From the NCBI GenBank assembly GCA_945901025.1, contig CAMDJW010000006.1, positions 62,001-126,000 of the forward strand: 64,000 bases of DNA, read 5' to 3'. The notes under the pieces were generated by a model. That model saw only the letters and a list, made by a program, of their open reading frames with translations, did no database searches and had not been told where the DNA came from. A program made the position numbers and the translations under genes. This document shows, one piece after another, positions 5,340-34,784 of this stretch (within the stretch, counting starts at the first letter, position 1; every line of letters starts with the position of its first letter). This DNA comes from Spirosoma fluviale. Lineage in GTDB: Bacteria > Bacteroidota > Bacteroidia > Cytophagales > Spirosomataceae.

Positions 5340-5347
5340 TAACTTTG
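5340..5347 (+). promoter_or_regulatory. Bacteroidota -7 box (TAACTTTG) of the ThuA-fusion gene
   Basis: TAACTTTG matches the Bacteroidota sigma-ABfr -7 consensus TAnnTTTG and lies 27 nt before ATG 5375. No convincing -33 TTTG is seen at the right spacing. The element includes the TTG used as a start by the ORF track, which argues against that start. Confidence 0.5.
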
Positions 5348-5374
5348 ACATTACCTATTATAAAATACAACACT

Positions 5375-8300
5375 ATGAAAAAGTTTTTGTTCGGCATAAG
5401 CCGAATTATTTTTGCCGTTTCTTGTTTGACTCTACTGTCTTTTCAACAAGTAAATGCTCAGGATAAAAATCCACTCTTAGGAAAAAAAGTCCTTGTTTTT
5501 TCTTCTACTAAAGGATATCGCCATGGCTCCATCGGATCCGGCAAAACGGCTTTAATGAAAATGGCTAAGGAGAAAGGCTTTCAAGTGGATACCACTGAAA
5601 ACGCAACGGCCTTTACTGAAAATAATTTGAAGCAGTATCGTGTGGTGGTTTTTTTAAATACTACGGGAAACATTTTAAATGATGCTCAGCAAAATGCGTT
5701 TGAGCGTTTTATTCAAGCAGGGGGTGGATATTTTGGTATTCATGCGGCTGCGGATACGGAGTATGATTGGCCTTGGTATGGAAAATTAGCAGGTGGTTTT
5801 TTTGCTTCACACCCTGGCAATCCAAATGTGCAAAAAGGTAAAATGAATGTCGTTGACAATACACATATTTCCACTGCACACATGCCCGCGTCGTTTGATC
5901 GCACAGATGAGTTTTATGACATTAAAGAATTTAATAAAGACGTTAAATTATTGGTGACTGTTGACGAAAAATCATACAAAGACGGTAAAATGGGAGATTT
6001 TCACCCAATGGCTTGGTACCATGAATATGATGGTGGTCGGGCATTTTATACCAACTGGGGTCACACAAATCAGACATTTTCTGAGGATTTGGTGCTGAAG
6101 CATATTTGGGGAGGACTTCAATATGTGTCTTCAGGACCCGATCAGAATTACAAGAAGAAGTTAAGGACCGAAATGGCGCCAGAGGACAATCGTTTTACGA
6201 AAACTATATTGGATCGTAGTTTAGATGAGCCTATGGAATTAGCGGTGGCTAATAGTGGGAAGATATTTTATGCAGAGCGTAAAGGGAAGTTGAAAATGTA
6301 TGATCCTAAAAAAGGCAAGTCTAAAGTGGTTGCTAATTTGAACGTATATACTAAGCAGGAATATGGTTTAATGGGTTTGAATATTGACCCTAATTTTGAT
6401 TCAAATAATTTCATGTATTTATATTATTCGCCGCCATCAGGTCAGCCAGATACAGCACAGCATTTATCTCGTTTTGTATATGATAACGTGAAGGATACTT
6501 TGCTGATGGATACAGAAAAGATTTTATTGCGCGTTCCTGTAAAGCGCGTGGAGTGTTGCCACACAGGTGGATCTATCGCTTGGGATAAGGTTGGGAATTT
6601 ATATTTGTCCACTGGCGATGATACAAACCCATTTGCATCAAATGGATATAGTCCAAGTGACAATCGTCCAGGCCGATCGGGTTGGGATGCCAGATCGACT
6701 AGTTCAAATACGAACGATTTAAGGGGTAAGATTTTACGCATCAAACCCACTCCAGAGGGAGGTTATACGATTCCTGCGACCAACTTATATCCAGAAAAAA
6801 TTTATCATGCTAAGCAGGAAATATATGTGATGGGGAATCGTAATCCATACCGTATTTCTGTGGATCAGCATACAGGTTATTTGTATTGGGGTGAGGTAGG
6901 TCCAGATGCTGGGGAAGCTTCCAAGAAATTCGGTCCAAGAGGACATGATGAGGTAAATCAAGCGCGTGAGGCAGGGTATTTCGGTTGGCCTTTATTTGTA
7001 GCGGACAACCGACCTTATAATCAACGTGATTTTAAAAATGATAGTACTTGGGCTGTATTTAATCCACGTGCGCCGATCAACGATTCGCCACATAACACTG
7101 GTTTTGCACATTTACCTCCTGCTCAAAAAGCTTTCATTTACTACCCATATGTAGACTCTCCTGAGTTTGGACCTGTGGTTGGAAAAGGTGGCCGTAATGC
7201 AATGGCAGGTCCTGTCTATTATAGAGATGACTATCCAGCGGATTCAAAAACGAAATTCCCTGCCTATTATAATGGGAAATTAATTGCTTACGATTGGGCA
7301 AGAGATTTAATTTATACAGTGTCCATGAAGGAAAATGGCGATTTTTCCAATATGGATCGCTTCTTGCCTTCGATTCCTTTTTCACATCCGATGGATATGC
7401 AATTTGATAAAAATGGAACACTTTTTGGTCTTGAATATGGACCCAACTGGTTTGCTCAAAATGATGAGGCCGTTTTATATAAATTGGAATATAATGCGGG
7501 AAATCGTAAACCATTGGCCAAAGCTTCTGCAGATAAAAAAGTAGGTGCGACACCTTTAAAAGTGAAGTTTTCATCGGCAGGTTCTCAAGATTATGACAAT
7601 GATAAAATTACGTATGCTTGGAACTTTGGCAACGGACAAACAAGTAATGCAGCTAATCCAGCCATCACTTTTTCTAAGTCGGGGGTATATGAAGTTTCCT
7701 TAAAAGTGAAAGATTCACAGGGAAATGTGGGTACATCCCAACTCACCATTCGAGCAGGTAATGAAGTTCCTGAGGTGGAAGTGGCTATTGAAGGCAATAA
7801 GACTTTTTATTGGAATGATAAACCTGTTAAGTATAAAGTTTCGGTTTCAGACAAAGAAGATGGAAGTTTAGCAAATAAAAAAGTAGCTGAAGAAGATGTG
7901 ATGGTGAGTGTCAATTTCTTAGATGGTTATGACAAAACAATTATTGCACAGGGACATCAGGCGAACATATCTTTTTCTACTGGGAAGCGATTAATGGATT
8001 TATCCGATTGTAAGGCATGCCATGCAACGGATAAAAAATCGATCGGACCTTCTTACTTGGATTTAGGCAAGAAATATAAGGCAAATGCGCAAACCATAGA
8101 TATGTTGGCTAAGAAAATTATCAACGGTGGTGGTGGTGTTTGGGGAGAGCAAGCGATGGCTGCACACCCTCAAATTTCATTAGGAGATGCGAAGGAAATC
8201 GTGAATTACATATTAAGTCTATCCGACAAGAAGAAGGCATCCAAGCCGGTCGTTGGCGAATATGTTCCTCAGGATAAAGGAAAAGCTGGTACTTATTTAT

Positions 8301-8749
8301 TTGCCGCTAGTTACACGGATAAAGGAGCTGGTAAACTAGGTCCTGCGACGGGCCAAAAGGTTGTGGCGCTTCGTAACCCAACCGTAAAAGCCGTGGATTT
8401 CGACCAAGTTTCTAAAGGATCTAAATATAAAGTGGACGGACTAGGAGAAGTTTTAGTTGCTACAGGTGATAAAGGTTTTGCTAAATACAACGGAATCGAC
8501 TTGACTGGAATTAAAAATATCTCCTTCATGGGATTGTATATGCAAGGTCAAACAGTTGGCGGAACTCTTGAGTTAAGAACGGGAAGTCCGACGGGTAATC
8601 TAGTAGGATCCGTTGAAATAAATGCGTCTAATAAATTCAATATTCCTGTTAATATTTCAGGCGTACAAGATTTGTATTTTGTCTTTGTGAATCCAAAAGG
8701 GGGAGACGGCGCATTATTTGGATTGAAGGATTTCTTATTTGAGAATTAA
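5375..8749 (+). CDS. Secreted ThuA - glucose/sorbosone dehydrogenase - PKD - cytochrome c - CBM-like fusion
   Basis: This 1124-aa multidomain protein starts at ATG 5375 with a signal peptide (FQQVNAQ near residue 29). In order it carries: a ThuA-type glutamine-amidotransferase-like domain (~36-260); a six-bladed GSDH/soluble glucose dehydrogenase-like propeller (~277-707, PMELAVA...GKIFYAE); a PKD domain (~710-792, ITYAWNFGNG); a class I cytochrome c domain with heme motif CKACH (879-883); and a C-terminal CBM6-like beta domain (~966-1124). It probably oxidises a sugar or glycan-derived substrate in the periplasm or at the cell surface and passes electrons to the heme. Heme attachment would depend on the Ccm system at 27.6-32.2 kb. 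The substrate is unknown. Confidence 0.88.
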   Translation: MKKFLFGISRIIFAVSCLTLLSFQQVNAQDKNPLLGKKVLVFSSTKGYRHGSIGSGKTALMKMAKEKGFQVDTTENATAFTENNLKQYRVVVFLNTTGNILNDAQQNAFERFIQAGGGYFGIHAAADTEYDWPWYGKLAGGFFASHPGNPNVQKGKMNVVDNTHISTAHMPASFDRTDEFYDIKEFNKDVKLLVTVDEKSYKDGKMGDFHPMAWYHEYDGGRAFYTNWGHTNQTFSEDLVLKHIWGGLQYVSSGPDQNYKKKLRTEMAPEDNRFTKTILDRSLDEPMELAVANSGKIFYAERKGKLKMYDPKKGKSKVVANLNVYTKQEYGLMGLNIDPNFDSNNFMYLYYSPPSGQPDTAQHLSRFVYDNVKDTLLMDTEKILLRVPVKRVECCHTGGSIAWDKVGNLYLSTGDDTNPFASNGYSPSDNRPGRSGWDARSTSSNTNDLRGKILRIKPTPEGGYTIPATNLYPEKIYHAKQEIYVMGNRNPYRISVDQHTGYLYWGEVGPDAGEASKKFGPRGHDEVNQAREAGYFGWPLFVADNRPYNQRDFKNDSTWAVFNPRAPINDSPHNTGFAHLPPAQKAFIYYPYVDSPEFGPVVGKGGRNAMAGPVYYRDDYPADSKTKFPAYYNGKLIAYDWARDLIYTVSMKENGDFSNMDRFLPSIPFSHPMDMQFDKNGTLFGLEYGPNWFAQNDEAVLYKLEYNAGNRKPLAKASADKKVGATPLKVKFSSAGSQDYDNDKITYAWNFGNGQTSNAANPAITFSKSGVYEVSLKVKDSQGNVGTSQLTIRAGNEVPEVEVAIEGNKTFYWNDKPVKYKVSVSDKEDGSLANKKVAEEDVMVSVNFLDGYDKTIIAQGHQANISFSTGKRLMDLSDCKACHATDKKSIGPSYLDLGKKYKANAQTIDMLAKKIINGGGGVWGEQAMAAHPQISLGDAKEIVNYILSLSDKKKASKPVVGEYVPQDKGKAGTYLFAASYTDKGAGKLGPATGQKVVALRNPTVKAVDFDQVSKGSKYKVDGLGEVLVATGDKGFAKYNGIDLTGIKNISFMGLYMQGQTVGGTLELRTGSPTGNLVGSVEINASNKFNIPVNISGVQDLYFVFVNPKGGDGALFGLKDFLFEN

Positions 8750-13036: not shown

Positions 13037-15010
13037 ATGAAACTGAAATTAATCATTTTGCTTTTCTTGGGTTTTGTGGGATTTACTGGCATGGCCCAAA
13101 AAATCACTCCGGCTAAATGGTCATGGACTTTGTCGCCAACGAACCCTACGGTGGGCCAGACGGCTGAAATTATATTTAAAGTAAAAATCGATAAAGGCTG
13201 GTACTTATATTCATCCGATTTCGACAAGGAATTGGGGCCTGTAGTTACGACCATTAAGATCAAAGAAAACCTTGGAGTATCTGTTGACGGACCTCTACGA
13301 GCCATCAATCCACATTCAAAATTCGATAAAGAGATTTGGAACGGAACGTACACCTATTTCACGGAGGAAGCGGAATTTCGACAAACTGTAAAAATCACCT
13401 CAGATTCTTGGAAGATTGACGGATCTTACGATTCGCAAACATGTTCGAATGAGAGCGGTTTGTGTGTGCCAATTAAAGGCCCATTTCTGATAAGTTCTAA
13501 CCTAAGCGGATCTTCTACTCCAGAAGATTCAAAAAAAAAAGCCTCTAATTCAACCGCAAAAATAATAGTACCAGAGGACGATCAGTCTTTATGGCAGTTT
13601 TTTTGGTTGGCGATGGGCGCTGGTTTGCTGGCCTTACTGACGCCTTGTGTCTATCCTCTAATTCCTATGACGGTTAGTTTTTTTACGAAACAACAAGGAG
13701 GCAAAAAACTGGCTTTTCTTTATGGTTTCTTCATTGTCCTCATTTATGTCTTCTTTGGCACCATTTTAGCATTTTTTGCGGGGGCTAGTTTTGCTAATTT
13801 TTTAAGCACACATTGGATTCCAAATCTTTTGTTTTTTGTCATTTTTATTCTTTTTGGTATTTCCTTTTTGGGTGCATTCGAAATTGTGTTGCCTTCTAGT
13901 TTGGTTAACAATGTAGATGCGAAATCTGATAAAGGAGGATTGTTAGGGGTATTCTTCATGGCATTTACGCTGGTTTTAGTGTCATTTTCTTGTACGGGAC
14001 CATTAGCCGGATCCATATTAATTGCCTCATCTCAGGGAGTATTTCTGAAGCCCATTATTGGCATGCTAGGGTTCTCATTAGCCTTCGCCATTCCATTTAC
14101 CATATTTGCTATTTTCCCAGGATTCATGCAAAAAATGCCTAAATCTGGCAATTGGATGAATGAAGTCAAAGTGGTGTTAGGCTTTTTAGAAATTGCCTTA
14201 GCCTTTAAGTTTTTAAGTGTGGCCGACCAGGTGTATCATTGGCATTTATTGGATCGCGAAATATTTCTAGCTATTTGGATTGCTATATTTACCGCATTAA
14301 CCTTGTATTTATTTGGTAAGATTTCCTTGCCTCATGATGGACCTAGCGGGAAATTATCTGTTCCCCGTGCGCTTTTTGCCACGGCTTTTCTTGCCTTCGT
14401 TATTTATTTAACTCCAGGAATGTTTGGCGCTCCATTAAAGGGTTTATCTGGTTGGTTGCCTCCCATGTCAAGCCAGGACTTTAAGGGTACTTCGCAGGTA
14501 AATGATCCAAATGCCGATGCATCAAAAACTTCTTCCTCGGTTAAATACAGCGAATTTTTAAAACTACCTTTGGGGCTCAATGGATTTTTTGATTTTGATG
14601 AAGCCAAAGCTTATGCTCAGAAAGTAGGCAAGCCCTTGTTTATCGATTTCACTGGACATGGTTGTGTAAACTGCAGGAAAATGGAGGAATATGTGTGGTC
14701 TGACCCAGCAGTATTGTCCATTCTGAAAAATGATTATGTCATCGTCGCGCTTTATTGTGATGACAAAACGGAACTCCCGGAAAATAAATGGTATGTTTCA
14801 AAAGTCGATGGCCAAGAAAAAAAGACCTTGGGAGATCAAAATTTAGATTTTCAAATTTCTCGATTTAATTCAAATGCCCAACCTCATTATGTTCTGTTAG
14901 ACCCTAGAAAGGACGCTGCTCCTATGGTTCCACCCGTCGCTTTTGATGCGGATATTAATCATTTTATTTCGTTTCTTAAAAAAGGAATTGACGCCTATAA
15001 ATCAAAGTAA
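13037..15010 (+). CDS. DsbD/CcdA-like thiol:disulfide interchange protein
   Basis: This is a transmembrane reductant conduit of 657 aa. A signal peptide (FTGMAQ) is followed by an N-terminal DsbD-alpha-like domain (~22-165), eight TM segments (~185-475) with the paired membrane cysteines C204 (TPCVYP) and C319 (SCTGP), and a C-terminal thioredoxin-fold domain with C543-V-N-C546. It carries electrons from cytoplasmic thioredoxin to periplasmic thiols. This could keep apocytochrome cysteines reduced for the Ccm system, which here lacks visible CcmG/CcmH. The start of the next gene lies 2 nt after its stop. Confidence 0.92.
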   Translation: MKLKLIILLFLGFVGFTGMAQKITPAKWSWTLSPTNPTVGQTAEIIFKVKIDKGWYLYSSDFDKELGPVVTTIKIKENLGVSVDGPLRAINPHSKFDKEIWNGTYTYFTEEAEFRQTVKITSDSWKIDGSYDSQTCSNESGLCVPIKGPFLISSNLSGSSTPEDSKKKASNSTAKIIVPEDDQSLWQFFWLAMGAGLLALLTPCVYPLIPMTVSFFTKQQGGKKLAFLYGFFIVLIYVFFGTILAFFAGASFANFLSTHWIPNLLFFVIFILFGISFLGAFEIVLPSSLVNNVDAKSDKGGLLGVFFMAFTLVLVSFSCTGPLAGSILIASSQGVFLKPIIGMLGFSLAFAIPFTIFAIFPGFMQKMPKSGNWMNEVKVVLGFLEIALAFKFLSVADQVYHWHLLDREIFLAIWIAIFTALTLYLFGKISLPHDGPSGKLSVPRALFATAFLAFVIYLTPGMFGAPLKGLSGWLPPMSSQDFKGTSQVNDPNADASKTSSSVKYSEFLKLPLGLNGFFDFDEAKAYAQKVGKPLFIDFTGHGCVNCRKMEEYVWSDPAVLSILKNDYVIVALYCDDKTELPENKWYVSKVDGQEKKTLGDQNLDFQISRFNSNAQPHYVLLDPRKDAAPMVPPVAFDADINHFISFLKKGIDAYKSK

Positions 15011-27427: not shown

Positions 27428-27664
27428 TTATTTCTTTTTTGATTTTTGTGGGTCTTCTTTTTTCAATCGTTCATTTTTTGAATACTGATAATAAAAAAGA
27501 CAGGCGACGCAATACATGAGCCAACCGTAATGATAAAATATTTCAGACCAGAAATGACCTTTAATATTATTGGGAACTGGGGAATTTAGATCGATGATCC
27601 AAATAATAAAAAACCCAATCCCTGCCGCTAAACTTAAAATTTCTTTTCTACCCATATTAGGCAA
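27428..27664 (-). CDS. Small two-TM membrane protein in the ccm operon
   Basis: This 78-aa protein has two hydrophobic segments (ILSLAAGIGFFIIWII and GWLMYCVACLFYYQY) and a Lys-rich tail. The second segment carries a CxxC (CVAC). It overlaps the end of ccmF by 8 nt and is followed after 1 nt by the GldE-like gene, so it is translated with the cluster. I recognise no family. The CxxC is noteworthy because the thiol-handling proteins CcmG and CcmH are absent from the cluster, but any heme-maturation role is speculative. Confidence 0.65.
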   Translation of the reverse strand: MPNMGRKEILSLAAGIGFFIIWIIDLNSPVPNNIKGHFWSEIFYHYGWLMYCVACLFYYQYSKNERLKKEDPQKSKKK

Positions 27665-30206
27665 TCATTTTTTCAGTCCTCCTAAATGTAGACACAAATA
27701 AGCCAATAAATATCAAAATCGATCCTACCCAAACTAAATTTATGTAAGGCTTTTCTATAGCTTTAATGATAATTAAATCTTGTTGGGTTGTATTATAAGA
27801 AAAACTAAATTCCTGTGTTTGAGGATTGATCGCGGTAAACTTAATTTTGATCCCCGTTTCTTCACTTTCAAATGCAGGCATAGCCACCATTCTATCCTTG
27901 ATAATAAACGTAGGAGCTAGTTGGAACTGCTGAAAATTCTTTCCTAATACATTGAAATTAGCACGAACGGCCGCATCATTCGGACCTAGAACTACATTTT
28001 CCACGTTAGTGACACGCGTGACATCCATTAAAATAGCTACAAAATCATTTAAGAATAAAGTATCTCCGATGGACACAGTGGCATCGACGGTTTGACTCCA
28101 CTGTTTTTCTGATCCGGCATCTGCGGCAAGACGTGGATCTAATGAAACGTAGGTGTAAATATCGTGATCCCAAGCATGTTTCACATCGGGTGAAATGGCG
28201 GTTCCCATTTTGGGATTCATTTGCCAACGAGGAAATAGGGATACAATTTTGCCTTCTGCATTTTTAAATTCTAATTCGTAATAATTATTTTCAGGCTCTA
28301 CAGTTAGCGTATCTCCTTTTTTAGCGATGGCCTGCCCTTCTTTTTCAATATTTTTTAAAGCAACTGCATGAAAATCACCTTCAATGATATCAAAATCTTT
28401 GCGATTAAAATACCCGGGCTTTCCTCTTAATTCAATTTTTCTACCTTTATAAGTAACTAGATAATCCTGCATTTGTGCTCCTTGGCCTAACCAAAGTGGC
28501 AGATTTTCCTTATTTTCTCTATTGTCATCTTTCGTGAATTGCTCTACTTTATTGGAGATAGCAAAGCCAGATCGATTAAGCGAAACAACTTTGGAATAAC
28601 CTGAAGAAAATAAAACGCCAATCAGCATGATAGCGAGACCTACATGGGATAAAGCGCCACCGGCAATGGAAAACTTTTGCTTCGTTAAAAACCATAATAT
28701 TTGGCCGTTCGCGACTAATGAAAATAGACCACTCCATAATAGAACGATGTATGGAATTTCATACACCTTTTCGAAATTAATGACAATCACAGTTAATAAA
28801 ACTGAAATCAAAAGAGATGAGTATAGCGGCTTAAATGAAGTGGATTGTTTTAATTTCCCCCACCAAACATATTGGCCAATTCCACTTAAAAGTGCAACCG
28901 CAATAAATATCCAAATTTGAATTTTACTGTAATGTGCGACTTGATCAGCAGGCAAAGCCATATTTGAGACCATTCCGAAGGCTTCAGCAATTTTATTGTA
29001 CACGGGAATGGAAGTCGTAAAAATGAGTTGGAATGCCGATAAAGTCAACACGGAAGCCCCTACAAAAATCCAAAATTCCTTATGGTAAATGCCAATCTCC
29101 TTTTCATCCTTAGGTAAACTTTTCCAGCGATAGGCTGCTAAAATAATGGCCCCCAATAAAAACGTAAACATGTAAATAAGGAGTTGCCCCGAAAGACCTA
29201 AATCTGTAAATGAGTGAACGGAAGCATTTCCAAGCACCCCAGACCGATTTAAAAAAGTTGAATAAAGGACCAAAATAAAGGTTGAGATGACCAAAATAAT
29301 GGAGGTTTTTAGCGCCGCACTTGAGTTTCGGTAGGCAATCATGGTGTGAATGGCACCAATTAAAACGAGCCAAGGAACAAAAGAGGCATTTTCAACCGGA
29401 TCCCAATTCCAATATCCTCCAAAATTCAAAGTCTCATAAGCCCAGTAGGCGCCCATGGTAATTCCAATTCCCAAAATGGCTCCTGAAAAAGCAGCCCAAG
29501 GTAATGCGGGTTTTATCCACTCGGTCAACTTATTTTTCCAAAGACCTGCAATTAAATAGGCAAAAGGAACGAGTGTCAGGGCAAATCCTAAAAAGAGCGT
29601 TGGCGGGTGAATAACCATCCAATAATTCTGTAATAATGGGTTTAGGCCACGTCCATCTTTTGGAATAAAATTGGGCTGTAAACTCCAGACGGGTAGGTCG
29701 GGCTGCGCCTCTCTCAACAAAAGAAAGGGGGATGATCCGATTTTCAAATCGATCCATGGAATAATGACACCTAAAATCATGGAGGTCAAAAACGTTTGCA
29801 CTAAGGCAAAAACGGTCATCACGGGAGATTCCCATTTAGGATTTTTGATCATTAAAATCACACCTAAAATAGCTTGCCAGAAGATCCAAAGTAAAAATGA
29901 ACCTTCTTGGCCTTCCCAATAACATGAAATCATGAACATGGTGGGAAGTGCTAAAGAGGAATGCGTAAAGGCGTAATGATATTCAAAATAGTGATTGTAT
30001 ATGATGATGAAAAGGCTTGAGGCCACGCCAATCACTAAAAATAGATGAATGATAAATAAGGTTCTTGCTGTTTTTTTCCAATCATTTACGGAGAGCTCAT
30101 CGCTTGCTTGAGTTGCCTTGAAATAAGAAAATGTTGCTAGTGCGGCAGTTACAAATGACGCAATTACCATTAAATGACCTATCGTGCCAATATTTTCGTG
30201 TATCAT
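27657..30206 (-). CDS. ccmF: Cytochrome c heme lyase CcmF
   Basis: This large polytopic protein of 849 aa transfers heme from CcmE to apocytochrome c. The tryptophan-rich WWD heme-handling motif is at ~263-280 (FGGYWNWDPVENASF), with the conserved NYWMVIHPPTLFLGF at ~194-208 and SCYWEGQEGSFLLW at ~94-107. The C-terminal ~250 residues include a long periplasmic domain before the last TM. It is about 200 residues longer than E. coli CcmF, as is usual for CcmF/CcsA-like proteins of this phylum. It lies 2 nt after ccmE. Confidence 0.93.
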   Translation of the reverse strand: MIHENIGTIGHLMVIASFVTAALATFSYFKATQASDELSVNDWKKTARTLFIIHLFLVIGVASSLFIIIYNHYFEYHYAFTHSSLALPTMFMISCYWEGQEGSFLLWIFWQAILGVILMIKNPKWESPVMTVFALVQTFLTSMILGVIIPWIDLKIGSSPFLLLREAQPDLPVWSLQPNFIPKDGRGLNPLLQNYWMVIHPPTLFLGFALTLVPFAYLIAGLWKNKLTEWIKPALPWAAFSGAILGIGITMGAYWAYETLNFGGYWNWDPVENASFVPWLVLIGAIHTMIAYRNSSAALKTSIILVISTFILVLYSTFLNRSGVLGNASVHSFTDLGLSGQLLIYMFTFLLGAIILAAYRWKSLPKDEKEIGIYHKEFWIFVGASVLTLSAFQLIFTTSIPVYNKIAEAFGMVSNMALPADQVAHYSKIQIWIFIAVALLSGIGQYVWWGKLKQSTSFKPLYSSLLISVLLTVIVINFEKVYEIPYIVLLWSGLFSLVANGQILWFLTKQKFSIAGGALSHVGLAIMLIGVLFSSGYSKVVSLNRSGFAISNKVEQFTKDDNRENKENLPLWLGQGAQMQDYLVTYKGRKIELRGKPGYFNRKDFDIIEGDFHAVALKNIEKEGQAIAKKGDTLTVEPENNYYELEFKNAEGKIVSLFPRWQMNPKMGTAISPDVKHAWDHDIYTYVSLDPRLAADAGSEKQWSQTVDATVSIGDTLFLNDFVAILMDVTRVTNVENVVLGPNDAAVRANFNVLGKNFQQFQLAPTFIIKDRMVAMPAFESEETGIKIKFTAINPQTQEFSFSYNTTQQDLIIIKAIEKPYINLVWVGSILIFIGLFVSTFRRTEKMIA

Positions 30207-30208
30207 AT

Positions 30209-30652
30209 TTATTTTTTCACTTCAATTAAAGCACTTGAATCTGCAGAAATTTTACCCTCCTGATATTTGGATGGACATTTTAAAAGAATTTTGTCACAAT
30301 AGAATATTTTGTCTGCTTTGATGCTTCCAACTAAAACTATTTTTTCGGATTTTTCAAAATCCTGGGGTTTTGGAGCGGCATAAATGACTTGGTTTTCACG
30401 ACCTAAACTATCTTCTACCGTAAATTCTAGTCGGTTTGCATCCAAAGCAGGATTAAATATCATGCCTATGATCTTTCCTTGAGCGTCTTTTTTAAGTTTT
30501 CCCACGACATGGACTTTTTGGGATGGGTCAGATTTCGATATTCTTTCTGCTTCATCAAAGCCCACATAGGTACTAGCGTCGCCCGTCGTAATTAAAATAA
30601 TCCCGATGGCAATGGCCACTAAAATCAATCCAATGATTTGTGTTTTTTTCAT
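30209..30652 (-). CDS. ccmE: Heme chaperone CcmE, CxxxY variant
   Basis: This 147-aa protein has an N-terminal TM anchor (residues 6-22) and an OB-fold periplasmic domain. Its heme-binding motif is C126-PSK-Y130 instead of the classical HxxxY. CxxxY CcmE proteins are known from archaea and sulfate reducers as part of the variant System I*, where the cysteine takes over covalent heme binding. Conserved surroundings include VHVVGKL, FTVEDS and ILLKCPSKY. It lies between ccmD and ccmF with 1-2 nt spacing. Confidence 0.93.
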   Translation of the reverse strand: MKKTQIIGLILVAIAIGIILITTGDASTYVGFDEAERISKSDPSQKVHVVGKLKKDAQGKIIGMIFNPALDANRLEFTVEDSLGRENQVIYAAPKPQDFEKSEKIVLVGSIKADKIFYCDKILLKCPSKYQEGKISADSSALIEVKK

Positions 30653-30653
30653 A

Positions 30654-30872
30654 TTAAACTTTCTTTGTAATCTCTTTTTCTAGTCGGGTAATTTTATTTC
30701 CCAAGTTGAAAAGGTAGATAAAAAGACCCACGAGAATTAATAAAACGACTGCAATGACCACATATATTTTCCCATCGGCGCGGAATTGATCCGCCATTTC
30801 GATGTCGGCTTGCTGGGCCATCCCAGTAAAACTGCTAACTAAAAGAATCAATAAAGTGTTTGAAAATTTCAT
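30654..30872 (-). CDS. CcmD-like small membrane protein
   Basis: This 72-aa protein has an N-terminal signal-like segment (LLILLVSSFTGMAQ), a second TM (IYVVIAVVLLILVGLFIYLF) and a short charged coil (NKITRLEKEITKK). Its position between ccmC and ccmE, its size and its topology fit CcmD, which helps release holo-CcmE from CcmC. CcmD sequences diverge widely, so the assignment rests on context. The putative signal peptide is atypical for CcmD. Confidence 0.72.
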   Translation of the reverse strand: MKFSNTLLILLVSSFTGMAQQADIEMADQFRADGKIYVVIAVVLLILVGLFIYLFNLGNKITRLEKEITKKV

Positions 30873-30874
30873 AT

Positions 30875-31549
30875 CTATTCGTTTTCTGATGTTATGTGTT
30901 CTAATTTTTTTATACGAATTCTAAGGTTTGCGATCCAATAGCCTAACAAAGTCCAAGCTAAAATGGCTGGATAAAAAACCAAGCGCATATTGGAATCTAA
31001 ATCGTACTTTGAAAATCCTGGATTCCCTCCATTTCCTGGATGTAAAGAATCTGTCATTCGAGGCAATATCCATATCAAAATCATGAAAATGACAAAGGCA
31101 AAAATATTATAAACATTTGATATTCTTGCTTTTTGCTGTTCATCTGGCATGGACGAACGTACTAAACCGTAGGCTAAATAAATTAATAGGCCGATCGCAA
31201 CCGAATTTAATTTAGGGTCGTTGGTCCACCAATCTCCCCACGTAAATTTGGCCCAAAGACTACCTGTAACTAGCCCTAACGTGGCAAAAACCAAACCGGT
31301 CTCGACATAAGCATTTGAGATAAGGTCACTTTTGATATCGGATTTTCGTAGGTACTGAATCGAATGGTACACAGAAGTGCCTAATAAGAAAATCATGGTA
31401 AACCACATGGTTACATGAAAGTATAGGTTTCTTACGGTTTCATTTAAAATGGCTTGTCGGGGCACCTTCCCCATAAATCCTGCCCAAATCGTGTAGATTA
31501 AAAGCAGCATACAGGCTATTTTCCAATAATTCTTTTTTAATGTCTCCAT
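30875..31549 (-). CDS. ccmC: Heme exporter/loader protein CcmC
   Basis: This six-TM protein of 224 aa loads heme onto CcmE. The WWD-domain signature is KFTWGDWWTNDPKLN (~102-116), flanked by His residues in the TM boundaries (YFHVTMWF, SVYHSIQYL) that should serve as heme ligands. Its 5' end overlaps ccmB by 13 nt and it is followed after 2 nt by the ccmD-like gene, so the operon is tightly coupled. Confidence 0.95.
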   Translation of the reverse strand: METLKKNYWKIACMLLLIYTIWAGFMGKVPRQAILNETVRNLYFHVTMWFTMIFLLGTSVYHSIQYLRKSDIKSDLISNAYVETGLVFATLGLVTGSLWAKFTWGDWWTNDPKLNSVAIGLLIYLAYGLVRSSMPDEQQKARISNVYNIFAFVIFMILIWILPRMTDSLHPGNGGNPGFSKYDLDSNMRLVFYPAILAWTLLGYWIANLRIRIKKLEHITSENE

Positions 31550-32205
31550 ATATAGGGAAATAAAATTCCTGATAATACAATAACTATTACATCTAAAGAG
31601 GCCAAAGTAGCCATTTCATCCCAATTCTCCTGCATGGATATTCCATCCATCGCACTTTTTGAGAGTTTAAGTAAGATCAATAAAAGTGGTATGATGATGG
31701 GAAAACTAAGAACCGACATCAATGTAGCTGAATTTTCGCCTTGTGCAGCTATTCCTGCGACCATTGTCAGTGTTGCTGAAAAACCGATAGATCCTAATAG
31801 TAAGGATATAACATATAAAGGTAAATTCCCAACGGGATTGCCCATGACCCAAGAATAAAATAAAATGCCCACAAATGAAATGCCGATCATCACAAGGGCA
31901 TTGTAAAATATTTTTGAGTAGATGACCGCTTCTGGGCTTACGATCGAATAATAAAATATATTACGCTGTTTGGATTCTTGCGTGAAGCTTTTTCCGATGG
32001 CATTGACGGCCATAAATAATATAATTAGCCAGAACAAAGTATTCCAGGTTATGGGATTAATCGCTTGCTGTTTGGCTTTGAATGATAAATAACAAACAAA
32101 TATGGTGGAGGCTAAATACAAGAGTAATCCATGAATCGCGTATTTCTGCCGCCATTCCATTTGGATTTCTTTTTTAACCAGCACGCGTATTTCGTTAATT
32201 AGCAT
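31537..32205 (-). CDS. ccmB: Heme exporter protein CcmB
   Basis: This six-TM permease of 222 aa belongs to the CcmAB ABC transporter that drives release of holo-CcmE. Family features include VKKEIQMEWRQKYA at the N-terminus, LFWLIILFMAVNAI, and the conserved ESKQRNIFYYSIVSPEAVIYSKI amphipathic region. It is the first gene of the cluster. The partner ATPase gene ccmA is not adjacent and not elsewhere in the window, so it must be encoded at another locus or be absent. Confidence 0.92.
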   Translation of the reverse strand: MLINEIRVLVKKEIQMEWRQKYAIHGLLLYLASTIFVCYLSFKAKQQAINPITWNTLFWLIILFMAVNAIGKSFTQESKQRNIFYYSIVSPEAVIYSKIFYNALVMIGISFVGILFYSWVMGNPVGNLPLYVISLLLGSIGFSATLTMVAGIAAQGENSATLMSVLSFPIIIPLLLILLKLSKSAMDGISMQENWDEMATLASLDVIVIVLSGILFPYIWRH

Positions 32206-32431: not shown

Positions 32432-32656
32432 ATGCGTACAGTTGCAGATTTGGGTATTGGAGAACATGGGTTTATATCAGGTTTTACGGATGAAAAACTT
32501 TCCTTAAAATTATTAGAAATGGGTTGTTTGCCAGGTACGGAGGTGATTTTAACACATCATGCCCCATTTGGAGACCCTATTGCCATTAAAGTTTCAGGTT
32601 ACACTTTATCTATGAGAAAAGAAGAGGCGGCCACCATCCTAATTAATTCGATTTAA
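32432..32656 (+). CDS. feoA: Ferrous iron transport protein FeoA
   Basis: This is a small cytosolic SH3-like protein of 74 aa that assists FeoB. Conserved features are the KLLEMGCLPGTEV block and the C-terminal GDPIAIKVSGYTLSMRKEEA. It is co-transcribed with feoB, whose start lies 1 nt after its stop. Expression is probably iron-controlled through the upstream palindrome. Confidence 0.93.
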   Translation: MRTVADLGIGEHGFISGFTDEKLSLKLLEMGCLPGTEVILTHHAPFGDPIAIKVSGYTLSMRKEEAATILINSI

Positions 32657-32657
32657 A

Positions 32658-34784
32658 TTGGCCAAAATTCCTAAAATAGCTCTTATTGGAAACCCAAATG
32701 CGGGGAAGTCGTCCTTGTTCAATACGTTGACCGGGCTCCGTCAAAAAACTGGAAATTTCCCTGGTGTAACCATGGATAAATTGACCGGCCTATGGGAATT
32801 AGGTCCAAAAAATGAAATCGAGGTTTTAGATTTACCTGGAATATATAGTATTTACCCAAAGTCCATTGACGAGGAGTTGGTGATTAATATTTTGGGAAAT
32901 CCGGCACATCCTGATTATCCCGATATGGCCATTGTCGTGGCAGATGCATCTAATTTAAAGCGAAATTTATTGCTTTTTTCTCAAGTTCGTGACTTGGGAA
33001 TTCCTACCGTTTTGGCCCTCAACATGATTGACGTAGCTGAAAATGAAGGATATGTCATCAACTCGATCAAGTTAGCTCGTGAGCTCAGTGTGGAGGTGGC
33101 GGAGGTAAATGCTAAAAAGGGGATTGGCATTAATGGATTAAAATTAGCAGTTCAAAAAAGCTTAGAAAATAGATTTTCGTCTAATGATGGCTTACCACTT
33201 CCGGTTTCGGAAGAGGTGATTACTGATATTCAGGGGGCTTTTGGAGACGTGGATCCTTATCGGTGTTTGCTTTGGCTGATGGAACATGATCGCATGAAAA
33301 TGTTTACAAAGGCCCAGTGTGCAGATTTAGATCAAATTATGGTCAAACATGATTTTGAACCCAAAAAATATAAGTCAGCTGAAACCGTAAAAAGATATGA
33401 GTTTTTGACGGAGGTGGTCGACCGTTGTGTCATTAATTTAAATAGACAATGGGATGCGCCACCAGTGAAAACATGGACAGACCGATTAGATAAATTATTT
33501 CTACATCCTGTTGGTGGATATTTGTTCTTTTTGGCGATTTTATTTGTCATGTTTCAAGCTGTTTTCACTTGGGCCACTTATCCGATGGATGCCATTGACG
33601 CTGGAGTAGCTTTATTAAATGATTGGTTGAAAGGCATACTTCCGGAATCGACCTTTAGAGGATTGTTGACCGATGGATTAATTGCAGGTATCGGGGGAGT
33701 ATTGATTTTTATTCCTCAAATAGCCTTCTTATTTTTCTTTATTTCGATGTTGGAGGAAACGGGTTATATGTCTCGTGTGATGTTTATCATGGATAAATTA
33801 ATGCGCCGATTTGGATTAAATGGGAAGTCGGTCGTTCCCCTTCTCTCCAGTGTGGCCTGCGCAGTCCCTGCTATTATGAGTACTCGGTCGATCGGTTCTC
33901 GAAAAGATCGTTTGATCACTATTTTGGTGACTCCTTTAATGTCTTGTTCGGCTCGATTGCCTATTTATACGGTGTTAATTGCCCTAGTGGTTCCTGAAAA
34001 AAATACGTTATTTGGGCTTTTTAACTTGCAAGGACTCGTGCTATTTATCTTGTATTTGCTCGGATTTTTTATGGCATTATTATCTGCCTACATGATGAAA
34101 TTGATTCTGAAGGCGAAGGAAAAGAGTTACTTCATCATGGAATTACCCACCTATAAAGGGCCGAGGTTTAAGCATGTGAGCTATACAATTTTGAACAATG
34201 TAAAGGCATTTGTTTTTGAAGCCGGTAAAGTCATCGTGGCTATTTCGATTATATTGTGGGTGTTAGCGAGCTATGGTCCAGGAGATAGTATGGAGGATGC
34301 GACCAACCGAATTAAAATTCAAAACCCAAATTTAACAGGTGTTGAACTTAGCAATAAAATTGCCGGAGAAAAATTAGAAAATTCGTATGCGGGTCATTTT
34401 GGCAAGTTTATTGAACCAGCCATTAGGCCTTTGGGATACGATTGGAAAATTGGGATTGCATTGATCACCTCTTTTGCCGCACGCGAAGTATTTGTGGGAA
34501 CGATGTCCACGATCTATAGTTTAGGAGGTGAAATCGACAATGAAAATGCAACCATCAAAAATAGAATGCGTGCGGAGATAAATCCACAGACTGGAAAGCC
34601 TATGTATGATATGGCTTTAGGGTTTTCTTTGCTGATTTTCTATGCCTTTGCTATGCAGTGTATGAGTACATTGGCGACGACCTACCGAGAAACAAAATCG
34701 TGGAAATATCCTTTAATTCAATTCGGTTATATGACCGCTCTAGCGTATTTATCCGCTTTTTTGGTCTATCAAGCCCTCTCTTAA
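32658..34784 (+). CDS. feoB: Ferrous iron transporter FeoB
   Basis: This is a GTPase-coupled inner-membrane Fe(II) permease of 708 aa. The N-terminal G domain has G1 GNPNAGKSS, G3 DLPG and G4 NMID, then a helical linker and a membrane domain with two Gate regions (PLLSSVACAVPAIMSTR, PLMSCSARLPIY). Translation appears to start at TTG 32658, 1 nt after feoA. No ATG occurs before the P-loop, so the rare start is forced by the conserved AKIPKIALIGNP start region. The 3' end overlaps the convergent thioesterase gene by 4 nt. Confidence 0.96.
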   Translation: MAKIPKIALIGNPNAGKSSLFNTLTGLRQKTGNFPGVTMDKLTGLWELGPKNEIEVLDLPGIYSIYPKSIDEELVINILGNPAHPDYPDMAIVVADASNLKRNLLLFSQVRDLGIPTVLALNMIDVAENEGYVINSIKLARELSVEVAEVNAKKGIGINGLKLAVQKSLENRFSSNDGLPLPVSEEVITDIQGAFGDVDPYRCLLWLMEHDRMKMFTKAQCADLDQIMVKHDFEPKKYKSAETVKRYEFLTEVVDRCVINLNRQWDAPPVKTWTDRLDKLFLHPVGGYLFFLAILFVMFQAVFTWATYPMDAIDAGVALLNDWLKGILPESTFRGLLTDGLIAGIGGVLIFIPQIAFLFFFISMLEETGYMSRVMFIMDKLMRRFGLNGKSVVPLLSSVACAVPAIMSTRSIGSRKDRLITILVTPLMSCSARLPIYTVLIALVVPEKNTLFGLFNLQGLVLFILYLLGFFMALLSAYMMKLILKAKEKSYFIMELPTYKGPRFKHVSYTILNNVKAFVFEAGKVIVAISIILWVLASYGPGDSMEDATNRIKIQNPNLTGVELSNKIAGEKLENSYAGHFGKFIEPAIRPLGYDWKIGIALITSFAAREVFVGTMSTIYSLGGEIDNENATIKNRMRAEINPQTGKPMYDMALGFSLLIFYAFAMQCMSTLATTYRETKSWKYPLIQFGYMTALAYLSAFLVYQALS

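Follow-up and report, generated by a model that had tools for sequence, protein, structure and literature searches.

Two questions are raised by this locus: which machinery attaches heme to the c-type cytochromes of a bacterium whose ccm operon encodes a CcmE with a cysteine at the heme-binding position, and is that cysteine peculiar to its genome? The operon lies in a window of Spirosoma fluviale DNA (the whole stretch that was analysed, 64,000 nt). With a probability of about 0.86, this locus forms the core of a System I* machinery for cytochrome c maturation that is complete, the ATPase CcmA being encoded elsewhere in the genome. The direct basis for this reading is gene content, conservation, genome-wide absences, the co-occurrence of a CcmA candidate with CcmE, and fold predictions.

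The ccmE product has 147 aa (KILLKCPSKYQE) and matches the Pfam CcmE family PF03100 with 44.9 bits against a cut-off of 24.6. In canonical CcmE proteins, which carry HxxxY, the heme-binding histidine occupies the position taken here by C126. The translation of the ORF reads ILLKCPSKYQE, with C126-PSK-Y130 instead of HxxxY, just as the original prediction had it. The protein thus has the cysteine at the heme position and the tyrosine four residues on that characterize System I*, and lacks the HxxxY of canonical System I. A search of the genome found this single CcmE and no second copy of the HxxxY type. The predicted structure (pLDDT 84) has one N-terminal membrane helix and an OB-fold, with the motif placed after the last strand; residues 129–142, the motif region, are modelled with low confidence. 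Solved CcmE proteins are among the structural matches of the model, and when a Bacteroidota CcmE profile is matched to the CcmE of Desulfovibrio vulgaris (2kct), the cysteines of both align.

As a separate observation, the top PDB match of the same sequence profile is Dictyostelium Nup160 (PDB 9hcj chain R0, residues 1575–1650; E 3.2e-7), which also ranks second among the fold matches of the CcmE model. Profile and fold matches thus point to a CcmE-like OB domain in this nuclear pore protein.

The genes are tightly packed in the order ccmB-ccmC-ccmD-ccmE-ccmF, all on the minus strand (Table 1). Pfam confirms all five members, including the CcmB, CcmC and CcmF expected of System I*, and neither ORFs nor Pfam matches reveal ccmA, ccmG or ccmH in the cluster or among its neighbours, which upholds the description of the cluster as ccmB-C-D-E-F only. 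The residues expected at heme sites are conserved. In CcmC, H45 and H170 are invariant and the WWD region is conserved (116 sequences); in CcmF, the WWD residues and H200, H287, H331 and H521 are invariant, and the fold matches that of Thermus thermophilus CcmF (6zmq).

Table 1. Positions in the window of the ccm genes and of further features discussed in the text.
Feature	Position	Strand	Evidence
ccmB, ABC membrane subunit	31537..32205	-	PF03379
ccmC, heme presentation to CcmE	30875..31549	-	PF01578; conservation in 116 sequences
ccmD, small membrane protein	30654..30872	-	PF20077 CcmD_alt, E 9e-24
ccmE, cysteine-type heme chaperone	30209..30652	-	PF03100, model pLDDT 84, fold matches to solved CcmE
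Codons C126-P-S-K-Y130, predicted heme attachment motif	30263..30277	-	sequence, conservation, 2kct alignment
ccmF, cytochrome c synthetase, 849 aa	27657..30206	-	PF01578 + PF16327; fold match 6zmq
Extra beta-rich periplasmic CcmF stretch, ~residues 708–812, absent from Thermus CcmF	27771..28085	-	profile + model; boundaries approximate
dsbD, three-domain thiol reductant transporter, outside the ccm operon	13037..15010	+	DsbD_N, DsbD_TM and thioredoxin domains
ThuA-GSDH-PKD-cytochrome c protein, CKACH at codons 8009-8023	5345..8749	+	Pfam incl. PF00034; motif

Downstream of ccmF are a 78-aa ORF and then a CorC/GldE-like gene; beyond ccmB lies the divergent feoAB pair (window 32432-34784) for ferrous iron uptake. 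The feoAB genes stand divergent beside ccmB in many Spirosomataceae (loci L046-L083), an adjacency that pairs iron uptake with heme export. The 78-aa ORF (window 27428-27664, minus strand) is kept in 16 loci of the Spirosomataceae type. We considered it as a substitute for CcmH and rejected it, as it has no Pfam match and no CxxC and is present in only those 16 loci. The genes are split in Emticicia, Lacihabitans and Jiulongibacter, with a solitary ccmF (L097, L117, L121 and L125) and ccmBCDE at a separate locus (L224-L227).

The assembly (2.64 Mb, 32 contigs, 98.6% complete) was searched for other maturation systems. Its CcmF is 99% identical to that of a Cytophagaceae MAG and 83% identical to that of Aquirufa rosea, which places the organism near Aquirufa (Spirosomataceae). 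CcmH, a component of canonical System I that is usually absent from System I*, has no PF03918 match in the genome, so the predicted lack of ccmH extends beyond the cluster. System II of the ccsBA type is lacking as well: there is no match to ResB (PF05140), and the cytochrome c assembly family PF01578 occurs only in CcmC and CcmF. The genome has 21 cytochrome c domain matches, the best 12 of which all carry CXXCH, one of them with six motifs. With no CcmH, no ResB, one CcmE and at least 12 CXXCH cytochromes, the operon is the only visible maturation system. A likely client is the ThuA-GSDH-PKD-cytochrome c protein with its CKACH motif.

As predicted, ccmG is missing from the cluster. The genome as a whole has five thioredoxin-like matches to CcmG/DsbE, all scoring below the cut-off of NCBIfam dsbE, and TlpA-like thioredoxins occur. 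We infer that DsbD likely feeds the reduction of apocytochromes and that the TlpA-like thioredoxins could reduce apocytochrome.

Could the apparent absence of CcmH, or of another system, be a gap in an assembly of 32 contigs that is 98.6% complete? We consider this extremely improbable, since CcmH is nearly absent from the whole phylum: it was matched in 12 of 393 Bacteroidota genomes, in five of them above the cut-off, and the CcmH-like proteins that were read have a different cysteine pattern of the CGCGSC type. The weak matches L179-L186, from other classes, have the motifs CGCGSC and CPCGQC; several also show a zinc-ribbon-like CxxC pair at the N-terminus, and they are possibly a separate family.

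The case of ccmA is different. It was predicted to be missing, and it is absent from the cluster, but the genome does contain an unlinked CcmA-like ATPase. In several other classes of Bacteroidota the gene directly before ccmB encodes an ABC ATPase whose signature is SSGMKQR. Among the genome's own ABC proteins compared, the best match to a profile of these ccmB-linked ATPases (145 bits, the next 133) is a protein of 205–211 aa with the signature SSGMKQK, encoded at G000:C1:300304-300918 on a contig other than that of the ccm operon. In a tree the candidate joins linked and unlinked CcmA proteins with support 100/99, on a long branch, and the genome's other ABC proteins in that tree fall outside the group. 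At a threshold of E≤1e-25, 24 of 25 other Bacteroidia with CcmE have it and none of 20 Bacteroidia without CcmE, the latter belonging mostly to one family, so that the co-occurrence is partly confounded with kinship. Loss of ccmA was rejected on the ground of this co-occurrence. The one CcmE-positive genome without the candidate, G045, has a weak CcmE match (2.4e-6).

The candidate gene directly follows lpxD, lpxC-fabZ and lpxA of the lipid A operon, a placement common to seven of the eight relatives examined; through it (L223 7305-7919, the same gene) a heme-handling gene is tied to lipid A synthesis genes. By the NCBIfam ccmA model alone the candidate is inseparable among 38 ABC matches, and its score is below the cut-off of that model. 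ABC proteins encoded near ccmB in Pontibacter were also considered as CcmA and rejected; they have the usual LSGGQ signature, are PstB-like and group apart from CcmA.

The location in the lipid A operon and the score below the NCBIfam cut-off, together with the fact that no Cytophagales locus read has an ATPase gene next to ccmB, are what one would expect if there were no CcmA, CcmBCD loading and releasing CcmE without a dedicated ATPase while the lpxA-linked protein serves another, perhaps envelope, transporter. We hold this to be quite improbable: the candidate tracks CcmE, in genome G132 the matching gene is the one adjoining ccmB itself, and the SSGMKQ signature and the tree group are common to the candidate and the linked ATPases. 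The reading we prefer, a System I* whose putative CcmA is encoded behind lpxA, includes an unlinked ATPase for whose identity the evidence is good though indirect, with a score below the NCBIfam cut-off.

Next to the question of machinery stands that of how widespread the cysteine is. CcmE was found in 264 of 393 sampled GTDB Bacteroidota genomes with the general Pfam CcmE model (not with our own CcmE as query), and the weakest of these matches were read only in part, so that a rare exception to the motif is possible. The motif was read at 145 loci from named Cytophagales and from genomes of many families and other classes; some loci share genomes, and the distinct CcmE sequences number ~140. 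CPSKY was found at 144 loci, CPSRY at one and HxxxY at none. Five further CcmE proteins (from Emticicia, Lacihabitans, Jiulongibacter and a related MAG) all have CPSKY. When 141 CcmE sequences are aligned, none departs from C126, P127, S128 and Y130, an invariance that does not arise by chance. Judged from these sequences, the cysteine is the rule for CcmE of the whole phylum Bacteroidota; our ccmE is genuine and typical of its lineage. The variant, shared by ~140 distinct Bacteroidota CcmE, is thus no peculiarity of this genome. At locus L141 (7532-7912, minus strand) a second CcmE-like ORF directly follows ccmE, ends one residue before the motif and has neither the cysteine nor the histidine motif.

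According to a 2011 review, CPSKY is found in most variant CcmE proteins (25 of 36 bacterial genomes), and the carriers are dominated by delta-proteobacteria, with Chloroflexi and Firmicutes also represented (PMC3601427). About one-third of the bacteria with variant CcmE retain CcmH, whose absence is not strictly defining; the System I* of Desulfovibrio yields holocytochrome c without CcmH and CcmG (PMC3601427). Heme on the CcmE cysteine was demonstrated in Desulfovibrio and Methanosarcina (PMC3601427, PMC9084895), and in M. acetivorans CcmE requires C120, and neither cysteine nor histidine can stand in for the other (PMC9084895). The cysteine–heme chemistry is thus not new, being known from these two genera; in Bacteroidota it would hold by analogy. 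The reviews consulted assign System I to proteobacteria, Deinococci, archaea and plant mitochondria. Alignments of CcmC and CcmD in a 2025 paper take in Cytophagia and Chitinophagia (PMC12077264). In the literature searched, which did not extend to the first descriptions of System I* (Allen 2006, Goddard 2010), we found no statement on CcmE in Bacteroidota and no biochemistry on any Bacteroidota CcmE.

These reports also bear on whether C126 has the role assumed for it. Because the motif region of the model is of low confidence, one may suppose that C126 is structural, or that CcmE carries heme non-covalently, by a chemistry unlike that of System I*. The invariance of C126 in the Bacteroidota alignment, the frequency of the same CPSKY motif in System I* CcmE, and the experiments on Desulfovibrio, where this cysteine binds heme, and Methanosarcina, where it is indispensable, make such a role very improbable.

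If heme is attached by System I* in the way proposed, CcmF would work without CcmH, a protein with roles in apocytochrome binding and in thiol chemistry. Across the phylum, 207–285 residues separate the last two membrane helices of CcmF. A Bacteroidota CcmF profile matches T. thermophilus 6zmq up to position 648 of 801, at chain residue 616 of 660; with only 44 residues of the Thermus chain left, ~110 positions are extra in Bacteroidota CcmF. The confidently predicted structure (mean pLDDT 87.5) is beta-rich there. A Thermus genome, one of our controls, has CcmH. A thiol-redox pair inside CcmF was rejected, as CxxC was found in none of 53 CcmF sequences, and without such a pair the extra part would not replace the thiol chemistry of CcmH. 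It could replace the apocytochrome binding, a suggestion that comes from the single comparison with Thermus. A tentative and rather doubtful scenario would then be that the Bacteroidota run on a System I* in which CcmH was lost early, CcmF acquired the extra stretch, which holds the apocytochrome at the active site in place of CcmH, and in Bacteroidia ccmA was relocated to the lipid A operon's end.

The CxxxY CcmE together with the lack of CcmH, of a second CcmE and of ResB bears out the assignment to System I*, from which the following route may be proposed. CcmC and CcmD would present heme at a periplasmic WWD site, where it would be covalently attached, probably through a thioether, to C126 of the membrane-anchored CcmE, while Y130 would serve as axial ligand. 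Release of holo-CcmE would fall to CcmA and CcmB at the expense of ATP, and CcmE would pass the heme to CcmF, which would join it to the CXXCH of the apocytochrome without CcmH, the apocytochrome thiols being kept reduced by DsbD and TlpA-like thioredoxins. Heme on the CcmE cysteine and transfer without CcmH are likely by analogy with the Desulfovibrio and Methanosarcina experiments.

The survey indicates that a large and environmentally important phylum relies on cysteine-type CcmE throughout. It offers many aerobic, cultivable bacteria for the study of how heme binds to, and is released from, the CcmE cysteine, and Bacteroidota also suit the question of how CcmF works without CcmH. For annotation, it warns that the ccmA of Bacteroidia is to be sought behind lpxA and not beside ccmB.

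Among known systems, the System I* of Desulfovibrio shares with the machinery described here the CPSKY-type cysteine CcmE, CcmD, the CcmF synthetase and the dispensability of CcmH, but here ccmA is unlinked and the periplasmic part of CcmF is long, as judged against Thermus CcmF. The CcmABCEF system of M. acetivorans (PMC9084895) likewise has a CxxxY CcmE, no CcmH, and ccm genes spread beyond one operon; unlike in archaea, CcmD is present here, and CcmF is one protein and not split as in Methanosarcina (PMC9084895). The canonical System I of Escherichia coli has homologues of all of CcmA, B, C, D, E and F with conserved heme-site residues, but differs in that our genome has a cysteine and not a histidine in CcmE, no CcmH, and no dedicated CcmG above the cut-off. 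With System II (ResB/CcsBA) the machinery has in common that WWD proteins attach heme, although this genome is without ResB.
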